Source of the DNA: an uncultured Saprospiraceae bacterium
GTDB taxonomy: Bacteria; Bacteroidota; Bacteroidia; Chitinophagales; Saprospiraceae
NCBI GenBank assembly: GCA_937927575.1
Contig: CALBEE010000082.1
Span: 1 to 40,967, forward strand
Direction: 5' to 3'
DNA: 40,967 bases
A program made the position numbers and the translations under genes. The notes under the pieces were generated by a model that worked only from the letters and a program-made list of their open reading frames with translations, was not told where the DNA came from and ran no database searches. Positions 28,075-36,285 of this stretch are shown in pieces. The stretch's first letter is position 1. Each line of letters begins with the position of its first letter.

Positions 28075-28680
28075 TTACTTTTTACGTAAATAAATATCAA
28101 AATTTAGGCTCAAGTTACCATTAGTGTCTTGAGGTATGAGTTCAATAATTCTAAGCTTGGCTTTTTCTTTAGAGGCCCAAGGATCCTTTTCGATATGAGG
28201 ATCTCCCTTAAAGTATATTTGGGATATAAGTTCTTTACAATTCGCTGCTGTCACCCTATAATGAATGTGGGCAGGACGAAACAATTGACCATTTAGATAT
28301 TTGCCCGGTAAGATAGTTTTAAATGAATACTGACCGTCTTCAGAAGTGATCCATCTCGCTCTTTGATGATACGCTTTTGATTCATTGTCATACACTCCAT
28401 TGGTATCACAATGCCAAATTTCAACCATTGCACTTTTTAGAGGAGTCACACAATCTGATTGATATACTTTTCCTTTCAGTTCGATTCTAGTTCCTTTTAA
28501 ACCTTCGTAAGTCAGGTCAGATCGGATAGGTGCATCAGATCTATAAAAAGGCCCAAGTATGTCATTAGTAGTTTCGCAATCGCTATCAAATGTACCGTCT
28601 GAAAGTTTACGTACTTTACCAAATGAAGAGAGACCAATTGCCGTTAAGGTCGAAGTAATCAGGAATTTTTTTCTATTCAT
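28075..28680 (-). CDS. exported intradiol ring-cleavage dioxygenase
   Basis: This 201-residue protein has the fold and ligands of intradiol catechol/protocatechuate dioxygenases, which open aromatic rings using Fe(III). The likely iron ligands are Y97 (GVYDN), Y128 (PGKY), H138 and H140 (PAHIHYRV). The N-terminus MNRKKFLITSTLTAIGL looks like an exported, Tat- or Sec-like signal, so it should act outside the cytoplasm. The DILGPFYRSDAP segment is typical of the secreted branch. No other aromatic catabolism gene lies nearby, so the substrate is open. It is the only gene downstream of the structured tandem repeats. Confidence 0.85.
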   Translation of the reverse strand: MNRKKFLITSTLTAIGLSSFGKVRKLSDGTFDSDCETTNDILGPFYRSDAPIRSDLTYEGLKGTRIELKGKVYQSDCVTPLKSAMVEIWHCDTNGVYDNESKAYHQRARWITSEDGQYSFKTILPGKYLNGQLFRPAHIHYRVTAANCKELISQIYFKGDPHIEKDPWASKEKAKLRIIELIPQDTNGNLSLNFDIYLRKK

Positions 28681-28988: not shown

Positions 28989-29423
28989 TAAAGTGACTGT
29001 GTTTGGCTTATCAAGCCTAAAGAGAGAGCATTTTTACTATTTCATATTGAGCCTGAAATCACGCAGCACTTACGCGTTTTTGCAAATAGTAATTATTCAA
29101 AATAGATGAGAAGAGAAATCTCCCCAAATTGTTGTCAAGGGGATTGTTTGAATTCTATAAAGTGACTGTGTTCGGCTTATCAAGCCTAAAGAGAGAGTAT
29201 TTTTACTATTTCATATTGAGCCTGAAATCACGCAGCACTTACGCGTTTTTGTAAATAGTAATTATTCAAAATAGATGAGAAGAGAAATCTCCCAAATTGG
29301 GATCAAGGGGATTGTTTGAATTCTATCAAGTGACTTTGTTTGGCTTATCAAGCCTAATGAGAGAGCATTTTTACTATTTCATATTGAGCCTGAAATGACG
29401 CAGCACTTACGCGTTTTTGTAAA
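28989..29423. repeat. 2.6 tandem copies of a ~169-base structured repeat
   Basis: Copy 1 starts at 28989, copy 2 at 29158 (period 169) and copy 3 at 29326 (period 168); copy 3 breaks off at about 29423. Copies 1 and 2 differ at only a few positions by eye. Each full unit contains nested inverted repeats: GGCTT-atc-AAGCC (29005-29017), TTACTATTT (29034-29042) with AAATAGTAA (29084-29092), ATTTC with GAAAT inside it, and a CTCCCC / GGGGAT pair. No reading frame spans them. They lie between two leftward genes. Confidence 0.85.
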
Positions 29424-29438
29424 ACGCTGCCAAGTGCT
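29402..29438. repeat. hairpin at the truncated edge of the third repeat copy
   Basis: AGCACTT (29402-29408) and GCGTTTT (29411-29417) pair with AAAACGC (29421-29427) and AAGTGCT (29432-29438), making a two-part stem with a 3-base loop. The left arms belong to the repeat unit, the right arms are unique sequence that replaces the rest of the unit. Confidence 0.7.
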
Positions 29439-29443
29439 ACTAT

Positions 29444-29474
29444 TTTTGAAATCTCATTCTGAGAGATTTCAAAA
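29444..29474 (-). terminator. 12-base perfect inverted repeat after the acyl-CoA dehydrogenase gene
   Basis: TTTTGAAATCTC (29444-29455) and GAGATTTCAAAA (29463-29474) form a perfect stem with a 7-base loop, directly next to the acyl-CoA dehydrogenase stop at 29475. The stem ends in A/T pairs so it may work as a terminator, although no long T run follows. Confidence 0.5.
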
Positions 29475-30629
29475 TTACTGATCAATGCCTTTAAGGATGT
29501 TTCGGCTGATAACAAGTTTTTGGATTTCGCTTGTCCCTTCGCCTATCGTACATAATTTACTGTCTCTGAAAAATTTCTCGACAGGGAAGTCTTTGGTATA
29601 ACCATAACCACCATGTATTTGGATTGCATCTGTTGCTGCTTCTACACATACTTCTGAAGCCATATATTTGGCTTTAGCAGCGATGGTAGTCATTTTCATG
29701 CCTTTGTTCTTAAGGTCTGCTGCTTTACGAGTTAATAGCTCAGCTGCTTGTATGCGCGTTGCCATATTCGCTAATTTGAAACTGATGGCTTGGAATCTAG
29801 ATATTGGCTTCCCAAATTGCTCTCTTTCTTGAGAATATTTTACCGATGCTTCGTAAGATCCTTTTGCTATACCTAGAGAAAGTGCTGCAATAGAAATACG
29901 TCCTCCGTCTAAGACCTTCATCGCTTGTTTAAATCCTTCACCTTCTTTCCCTAAAACATTTGCTGCAGGCACTCGACATTCATCAAAGATCATTTCTGCC
30001 GTCTCCGAAGCTCTCATGCCTAGTTTGTTCTCTTTCTTACCACCACTAAATCCTACAGTTCCTCTTTCTACTACAAATGCGGTAATACCATTACTATCCA
30101 ATAATTCGCCTGTTCGAGCTAAAACCACTGCAATATCACCTGATATACCATGAGTAATCCAGTTTTTGGCACCGGTAATGATATAGTCATCGCCATCTCT
30201 TTTGGCAACACACTTCATACGCATAGCGTCAGATCCTGTATTGGCTTCCGTCAAGCCCCACGCTCCAATCCATTCACCAGTAGCCAACTTTGGCAACCAT
30301 TTCTTCTTTTGCTCTTCATTACCAAACTGTAATATATGACCCGTGCAAAGTGAATTATGAGCAGCTACAGACAATCCTATAGAACTACATACTTTAGTGA
30401 TCTCTTCTATTACGGTGATATACTCTTGATAGCCAAGACCAGCACCACCATACTCTTCTGGTACTAGTACACCCAAAAATCCTTGTTCTCCAAGCTTATG
30501 CATTACATCTTTTGGAAAATGTTGTGACTCGTCCCATTCCATGACATGTGGCCTGATATGCGCTTCGGCAAATTGTTTTGCACTTTCAGCAATCATTTCA
30601 AGATTTTCTACTTGCTCAGATGTCATCAT
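29475..30629 (-). CDS. acyl-CoA dehydrogenase (short/medium-chain type)
   Basis: This 384-residue flavoenzyme catalyses the FAD-dependent alpha,beta-dehydrogenation of acyl-CoAs. Visible landmarks are [18 protein letters not shown] (flavin/acyl binding), [10 protein letters not shown], the [21 protein letters not shown] segment, [20 protein letters not shown], and the catalytic base E364 in GEGTSEIQ. Length and motif order match the butyryl-CoA-dehydrogenase-like group common in Bacteroidota. Two ATG codons open the frame (30629, 30626). It is monocistronic here; the partner electron transfer flavoproteins are not in the window. Confidence 0.93.
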
Positions 30630-35541: not shown

Positions 35542-36285
35542 CTATTTCTCGATAGTAGGTAATTTCATCTTCATATCCTGCATAGTCTCCAACACCTTCT
35601 TAGTGATAAACCAATTGCGATAAGTACGACTATCTACTGGAGCTATAATCCAAGGTACTGATGATCTATCAATAGCGTCTTCATAAGCGTCTCGATATTT
35701 AGCCCAAAGTTTTCTTTCTTCCCAATCTCCATCATTATGTTTCCAGTTTTTCTCCGGATCATCTATACGTTCTTGAAGCTTTTCTAGTTGACGTTCTTCA
35801 GATAAGTGCATATAGAATTTCAAGATAGTAGTATTATTATCAAACTGTAATAACTCTTCCCATGCATTAATCGCATTGATGCGTTTAGTCACATGTTCTT
35901 CGTCTATCCATTGGTGTACCCTTTGTATTAAGATGTCTTCATAGTGTGATCTTATGAATACTCTTATCGTTCCCTTTTGCGGAGCGAGTTTATGTACTCT
36001 CCAGAGAAAATCGTGAGCAAATTCTTCGTCAGTTGGCTTTTTAAAAGAGGTAGCATTAATGCCATTTGGTGAGCAGTATTTAAAGGTTTCTCTCGTAGCT
36101 CCATCTTTTCCGCTACTGTCCATTCCTTGGAATACTACAAGCAAACTGTTTTTTCCTTCAGCAAACATGATTTCATGTAATTCACCAATTTCTTTGGCCA
36201 TTTCTCGCTGCTCCTTTTTATATTTTTTCTTATCAAAACCTTTAGGAGGTTGAGTACTAATATCTGCTAATTTGATCTTTGCCAT
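35542..36285 (-). CDS. PPK2 family polyphosphate kinase
   Basis: This 247-residue kinase transfers phosphate between polyphosphate and nucleoside phosphates. It has Walker A at 54-62 (GMDSSGKDG), the lid/basic module in KPTDEEFAHDFLWRVHK, and Walker B as FIRSHYEDILIQRV (110-123); most relatives have FNRSHYED, so the Ile at 111 is a small departure. The C-terminal WIIAPVDSRTYRNW segment is also conserved. Length and motifs fit single-domain PPK2; the subclass (ADP versus AMP) is not decided. The ATG at 36285 is preferred. It starts 38 bases after the stop of the DUF58 gene. Confidence 0.93.
   Translation of the reverse strand: MAKIKLADISTQPPKGFDKKKYKKEQREMAKEIGELHEIMFAEGKNSLLVVFQGMDSSGKDGATRETFKYCSPNGINATSFKKPTDEEFAHDFLWRVHKLAPQKGTIRVFIRSHYEDILIQRVHQWIDEEHVTKRINAINAWEELLQFDNNTTILKFYMHLSEERQLEKLQERIDDPEKNWKHNDGDWEERKLWAKYRDAYEDAIDRSSVPWIIAPVDSRTYRNWFITKKVLETMQDMKMKLPTIEK

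Follow-up and report, generated by a model that had tools for sequence, protein, structure and literature searches.

A two-hairpin module behind stop codons beside a tandem repeat array in a Saprospiraceae genome: a candidate REP-like mRNA 3′-UTR element of one genus

Introduction

A 169-bp tandem array in a gene-free gap of an uncultured Saprospiraceae bacterium is, in the reading toward which we lean, a by-product of a genus-specific, REP-like module of two hairpins in mRNA 3′-UTRs that probably defines mRNA 3′ ends. We infer this function from the placement of the module, its descent, its covariation and the strand preference of its outer helix, which are direct observations on the compared genomes. 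The module appears to be specific to one genus of Saprospiraceae-related bacteria, with no convincing copy in the samples outside it.

The making and protection of mRNA 3′ ends in non-model Bacteroidota is, to our knowledge, a little-known subject, and a compact covarying module that follows the stop codon in genes such as gyrB, those of pyruvate kinase and GAPDH, and an RNase E/G gene offers a testable handle on such ends. It is, moreover, REP-like DNA with strand-specific evidence of acting as RNA, and bears on the old question of REP function. What appears to be new is a covarying two-hairpin module fixed behind stop codons, the known kind that it resembles being REP-like elements; among the papers on Bacteroidetes REP-like repeats and on Saprospiraceae intergenic and noncoding elements that our search listed, neither hairpin is described in a title or in the opening of an abstract.

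Results

The array and its surroundings

In the window, i.e., the whole stretch of 40,967 nucleotides that was analysed, Tandem Repeats Finder reports one array only, at 28989-29423, with a period of 169, 2.6 copies, 95% matches and 0% indels. The original prediction of a tandem repeat of about 169 bases, with two full copies and a partial third that are nearly identical, is thus borne out to the base. Two minus-strand genes border the gap holding the array, one for a dioxygenase (28075-28680, PF00775) and the other for an acyl-CoA dehydrogenase (29475-30629), and the absence of a reading frame is upheld, with 0 ORFs of at least 80 aa overlapping the array. The features of the region, including the two hairpins named H1 and H2, are the following.

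28989-29157, no strand assigned: tandem unit copy 1, 169 bp, with one half of H1 only, at about 29061-29085 (Tandem Repeats Finder and sequence)
29158-29326, no strand assigned: tandem unit copy 2, 169 bp, with one half of H1 only, at about 29230-29254 (Tandem Repeats Finder and sequence)
29327-29423, no strand assigned: partial copy 3, gene-adjacent, continuing into the intact H1 (Tandem Repeats Finder and sequence)
29399-29440, minus strand: H1 hairpin, 42 nt (models R1-R3, fold and pair counts)
29444-29474, minus strand: H2, a 12-bp hairpin that directly follows the stop codon (fold)
29475-30629, minus strand: host gene, acyl-CoA dehydrogenase, 384 aa (Pfam; orthologs 95-96% identical in three sister genomes)

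For the array unit the fold is no better than for dinucleotide shuffles, with z −0.09 on one strand and −0.15 on the other, so that the earlier statement of nested hairpins in each copy is weak for the unit. The 9-base arms (TTACTATTT at 29034-29042 and AAATAGTAA at 29084-29092) do exist, but they are missing in the third copy and unpaired in the minimum-energy fold. On the minus strand of 29327-29480, which comprises copy 3 and the bases that follow it, the fold reaches z −5.06, and 0 of 200 shuffles are as good. A small structured RNA family, one of the explanations offered at the outset, was therefore right in kind and wrong in place: the unit is the 42-nt H1 with H2, this pair is read on the minus strand and lies partly outside the array, and the array itself is single. 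The genome to which the window belongs (G000; 262 contigs, 4.45 Mb, 87% completeness) has no second 169-bp array of the same kind in the 262 contigs searched, and the genome-wide search for further copies that had been advised succeeded with H1 instead, which is dispersed in 30 copies.

CRISPR arrays have repeats of 24-48 bp with non-repetitive spacers between them (PMC3733652); the 169-bp units stand head to tail without spacers, and the reported lack of a CRISPR signature holds. In the window 0 matches pass the Rfam gathering cut-off, those in the gap lying far below it (E 0.21-4.4). A mobile, phage or plasmid origin of the array was considered and set aside, no similar DNA being present in the phages or plasmids searched; one core pattern had no exact match in viral contigs.

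A regulatory array for the dioxygenase, also proposed originally, is not supported, because it is the acyl-CoA dehydrogenase gene whose 3′ end carries the module. In G000 the dioxygenase gene separates a Dus gene from the array. The congeneric genome G003 has a different array at the same gene end, where the next ORF is Dus (81% identical to the Dus of the window) with no dioxygenase ORF between, and the dioxygenase is therefore not needed for an array to be present.

Anatomy of the two hairpins

On the RNA of the upstream gene the module runs from the stop codon through H2 and a few nucleotides to H1. The window H1, read as gene-sense RNA, has covarying outer arms of 9 bp, an internal loop GGCA/GU and a conserved inner stem GCGUUU..AAACGC, and the general plan comprises an outer arm of about 9 bp, an internal loop 5′-GRMA / GU-3′, an inner stem GYG-UUU..AAA-CRC and a short loop. 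The arms vary and the internal loop is nearly invariant: among 77 distinct rows its first G is kept in 72, its last A in 76, the subsequent G in 72 and the U in 74. Among the 97 copies aligned on the antisense strand, all 17 with a C-G closing pair have the loop TTTC or TTCC, and of 76 with a T-A or A-T closing pair 65 have TGCC or TGTC; only G001 and G003 contain the C-G type.

H2 is very variable in sequence and length. At the acyl-CoA dehydrogenase it follows the stop codon directly in all four species, and of its 12 pairs from the base 4 differ on both sides among these species and 0 are broken. Relatives of the host dehydrogenase at 80-82% identity are found in five Saprospiraceae genomes and one Bacteroidia metagenome genome.

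Copy numbers and reach of the family

The first lead came from a search of 100 relatives. The first covariance model, R1, was made from a 7-row alignment of the window copy, four other places in G000 and two copies in G003; its seeds omitted places in C16, C231 and C237, the last of which afterwards proved to be a copy. R2 was rebuilt from 59 copies, and R3 is the sense-strand model, which aligned 81 copies (77 distinct rows) against 97 (91 distinct rows) for R2. At E ≤ 0.01, R1 detects 27 copies in G000, 28 in G001, 23 in G003 and 2 in G002, and R2 detects 30, 32, 27 and 5, respectively, at 23, 20, 18 and 5 loci. The 94 H1 copies thus amount to 66 loci or clusters across the four genus genomes, and the only R2 match in the window contig is the H1 at 29399.

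Under strict filters R2 gave 0 copies in 247 other genomes of the order, and R3 gave one place only in 295 other genomes of the phylum, both scans scoring few candidates per genome, so that weak copies may be missed. The one place, in G399, is an unrelated long perfect palindrome and was rejected as a copy of H1. R1 has weak matches in G023, G039, G047 and G048 (E 0.07-0.44), and similarity matches in G061 and G091 lie in unrelated sequence and were taken as chance.

Many copies are close to contig ends, at a distance of about 600 bases or less (C43, C83, C108, C147, C165, C172, C201 and C237 of G000), which suggests that arrays may break the assembly and that true copy numbers may be higher.

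Placement behind stop codons

At 62 of the 66 loci there is a gene-side ORF of at least 100 aa, called by length only, so that some may be false; the 4 loci without one are left out of the count. The element is found at the 3′ end of this ORF in 59 of the 62, the ORF lying on the opposite strand in 3. Where the gene-side ORF is no more than 100 nt away, H1 is behind its stop codon in 50 of 50 loci. H2 starts within 2 nt of the stop codon end at 43 of these, the stop codon is within the H2 loop by eye at 4 (rimO and D-ala-D-ala ligase genes), and the predicted H2 fold begins 7-10 nt from the stop at 3. The 50 stop codons are TAA in 26 cases, TAG in 22 and TGA in 2.

Perfect stems of at least 8 bp adjacent to the stop occur at 17 of 52 element-bearing gene ends vs. 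4 of 122 other ends, the counts at three shifted positions being 0-1 of 52 and 0-2 of 122. The low figure for the other ends, in the stretches examined, led us to reject stop-adjacent hairpins as a general habit. Elsewhere in the window, the minus-strand gene at 35542-36285 has its stop codon inside an 11-bp perfect hairpin made of its last codons and the bases that follow.

About 30 host proteins, mostly one per ortholog group, were scanned with NCBIfam and Pfam. Many hosts are housekeeping genes, and the families recognized include rimO, bshB1, frr, a LolD-like ABC ATPase, a LolCE-like permease, GAPDH, an RNase E/G gene, trxB, thyA, sucB, ribose-phosphate diphosphokinase, an IcmF-like mutase, pyk, gyrB (scanned as a fragment), lptE and D-ala-D-ala ligase; some host proteins have no family match, L020, L030 and L048 lacking one in NCBIfam.

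At 49 of 51 loci the next ORF is at least 128 nt off or absent from the stretch examined (5 of the 49), hence the module usually seems to close a transcription unit. Such a position would also suit an unusual transcription terminator, in which the double hairpin, alone or together with a partner protein, would stop RNA polymerase, and so would the finding that only 2 of 51 element-bearing ends have a U-tract terminator within 250 nt of the stop in a simple scan, a figure that is, however, not clearly below the 9 of 79 for other gene ends. A T-rich stretch comes shortly after H1 in 5 of 50 copies (directly in two, L033 and L035), but 45 of 50 lack one there and 49 of 50 lack one in the spacer before H1, and ordinary U-tract hairpins do exist in the same window, starting about 20 nt or more after stops. 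A terminator of this type is consequently, to our judgment, distinctly unlikely.

Covariation and strand preference

The covariance search with aligned copies that had been recommended revealed strong covariation in H1 across the genus genomes. When 59 copies (57 distinct) are aligned on the antisense strand, both sides change in 13 of 15 pairs and covariation is 0.462, vs. 0.131 when shuffled and at most 0.165 with slid partners; in the sense alignment of 77 distinct rows the corresponding values are 12 of 15 pairs and 0.542, vs. 0.174 and at most 0.133. Since the alignments were fitted to the structure and the copies are related and non-independent, these controls overstate the significance. 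Between orthologs (23 comparisons at 17 gene groups) 80 pairs have changed, of which 31 are double changes with pairing kept, 18 are one-sided with pairing kept, and the remaining 31 lack pairing in one species or more, the sense strand included.

The strand on which the fold matters is indicated by the wobble pairs. Of 1332 H1 pair cells, 1191 are Watson-Crick, 75 are A.C, 19 are G.T and 47 are other mismatches, where an A.C cell is a G.U pair on the gene-sense RNA and a G.T cell is a wobble on the antisense strand only. Counted as loci and summed over pairs, the asymmetry is 62 vs. 20, and it is strongest in the three basal pairs of the outer helix (56 vs. 4 cells). Paired cells make up 96.8% of the outer helix on the sense strand vs. 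88.7% on the antisense strand, values taken from two alignments, each fitted to its own model and comprising 77 and 91 distinct rows, respectively; the A.C and G.T counts show the same strand contrast inside one alignment. The inner stem has no sense bias (10 vs. 11 cells), and one of its pairs is reversed (0 vs. 7 loci). Strand-biased deamination was rejected as the cause of the asymmetry, as the sense-strand flanks (T/A 0.81, G/C 0.95 at 65 loci) are not T-rich and do not fit a C-to-T bias. Because the outer-helix wobbles fit the gene-sense strand, the H1 fold probably acts in the mRNA.

Palindrome-correcting errors of replication could yield double changes without selection. Were template switching in replication to correct imperfect palindromes in this way, the module could have no function and the array could be an ordinary slippage product, and the excess of double over one-sided changes between orthologs (31 vs. 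18) and the two different tandem arrays at the same gene end in two species agree with this. What it leaves unexplained are the unpaired loop positions conserved in 72, 76, 72 and 74 of 77 rows, the fixed orientation at stop codons and the wobble asymmetry of the outer helix, and we regard absence of function as very unlikely.

Descent in place and duplication

The identity of H1 arms is 0.773 at orthologous genes (23 comparisons), 0.551 between other sites of the same genome and 0.522 between other sites of different genomes; the ortholog comparison excluded L024/L025, which are paralogs, and the T9SS-tail group (L029, L039, L054, L090 and L103). The greater likeness at orthologous genes implies that the copies largely descend in place.

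This has a bearing on whether H1 belongs to a selfish REP/REPIN family that a RAYT (Y1) transposase spreads by acting on single-stranded hairpins, tolerated behind genes and functionless for them. In published descriptions REPs stand a short way behind genes, whose TAG stop they often provide, and form clusters together with flanking DNA (PMC3733652); G000 has 4 Y1_Tnp genes, and a REP-like GTGG foot is present in 27 of 96 H1 copies, on the antisense side, which speaks against a role in mRNA and would fit one at the level of DNA. At the four Y1_Tnp loci of G000, two of which start within 350 bases of a contig end, R1 nevertheless has 0 hairpins at E up to 10, and each of the genes is flanked by other hairpin-forming sequence by eye. 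Inheritance at orthologous sites in one fixed orientation also disagrees with such spread, as does the outer-helix wobble asymmetry in favor of sense-strand RNA, and we hold a selfish family of this sort to be unlikely. By eye, the Y1_Tnp genes L056, L057, L058 and L059 have their own hairpin-forming or repeated sequence alongside, which at L059 is a nearly identical long palindrome on both sides of the gene.

More than one copy is present in 16 of 66 clusters. In 13 of these 16 the best score, outright or tied, belongs to the copy nearest the gene (7.3 expected, P 0.003), as it does in 9 of 11 where the gene is within 100 nt (4.9 expected, P 0.011); a distal copy outscores the proximal one in 3 of 16. 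At the acyl-CoA dehydrogenase, G003 matches the window array at its end only (76-80% identity, two tandem places), and the array behind the same gene in G003 is unlike that of the window, with a period of 98 and 2.2 copies. The two arrays share the plan of their ends, i.e., a hairpin with variable arms round a common core. The window array, in which copies 1 and 2 retain half of H1, looks like duplications of the module together with flanking DNA, of which only the copy adjacent to the stop codon would have been kept.

At the same gene G002 has H2 and lacks H1, which is therefore dispensable there, and G001 (L197) has a differently built second hairpin in place of H1. This second type, with the inner motif AATGTGGC..ACACATGGG, is also found in the third distal unit of L199 in G003, and its GTGGC..ACAC core resembles many H2 hairpins by eye. 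At L018 (201-337, contig C172 of G000) a degenerate 48-bp tandem repeat of 2.9 copies and 77% matches abuts an intact gene-proximal H1, a layout that is the same as in the window.

Discussion

The fold of H1 is largely kept while its letters change, which makes it probable that the module shapes mRNA ends. We propose that the double hairpin would form near the transcript end, after termination further downstream, possibly of the Rho type; a Rho gene is present, and a U-tract behind the hairpins is rare. The double hairpin would then stop 3′-to-5′ exonucleases, whereby the mature 3′ end would be defined and stabilised, and the conserved internal loop is perhaps bound by a protein. During replication the same hairpins may provoke slippage, so that module and flanking DNA would be duplicated, and retention of the copy at the stop codon with decay of the distal ones would yield both arrays independently, that of 169 bp in the window and that of 98 bp in G003.

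A bolder and more doubtful version of this scheme is a post-transcriptional regulon, in which about 20 mRNAs per cell would carry the 3′ double hairpin and one dedicated RNA-binding protein would read its conserved core. The arm sequences would in that case be free as long as they are paired, and two of the four species show a joint switch of the GGCA/GAAA loop (sense) and the closing pair, as though the element were evolving together with its protein.

Among known systems, intrinsic terminators share with the module stable hairpins at gene ends, but differ in that the U-tract is rare here, H2 starts at the stop codon itself, and the internal loop of H1 is conserved. Integron attC sites are likewise imperfect palindromes at the 3′ ends of genes, with conserved R and L boxes and an accompanying integron integrase. 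As to the MITE-like element that had been considered for the array, neither terminal inverted repeats nor a target-site duplication are seen by eye in the listed copies, with an empty-site comparison at the acyl-CoA dehydrogenase only, and the inheritance of copies at orthologous sites argues against it.

The atypical, unusually shaped hairpins that flank the transposase gene in Bacteroidetes TnpA-Y1 subclass 2.6 (PMC6006769) come from Bacteroidota too and resemble the dispersed, unusual hairpins found here in a comparison by description, not by sequence. RAYT-linked REPs and REPINs also flank the Y1 transposase gene; R1, in contrast, detects no copy of H1 at any of the four G000 loci with a Y1_Tnp gene.

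REP, BIME and REPIN elements, palindromes with GTAG and CGTC tags, are characterized as short, dispersed, often lineage-restricted and mostly situated right behind genes, where they sometimes provide the stop; they occur in pairs and multiply in clusters that include flanking DNA (PMC3733652). H1 is similarly dispersed (5 copies in G002 and 27-32 in each of the other three genomes), with 59 of 62 loci at ORF 3′ ends. One definition of REPs requires GTAG or GTGG to precede the stem by 0-2 nt on its 5′ side and the basal stem to have 7-20 bp, with an optional second stem joined via a bulge of 1-3 nt (PMC6006769). GTGG is the commonest H1 foot, yet it has the limited frequency given above, on the antisense strand only and at the one register counted, GTAG is not among the 12 commonest feet, and no GTAG/CGTC tag is seen among the commonest ends; the basal stem of 9 bp and the second of 6 bp are joined by a 4x2 internal loop instead. 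Published accounts suggest that REPs may take part in the stabilisation of mRNA, in termination and in translation (PMC3733652; PMC6006769). By analogy, the module would work like a transcribed REP, with the REP family as its nearest kind and membership doubtful on tag and bulge size, and it is set apart by the fixed order and orientation of H2 and H1 relative to the gene and by wobble evidence for sense-strand RNA.
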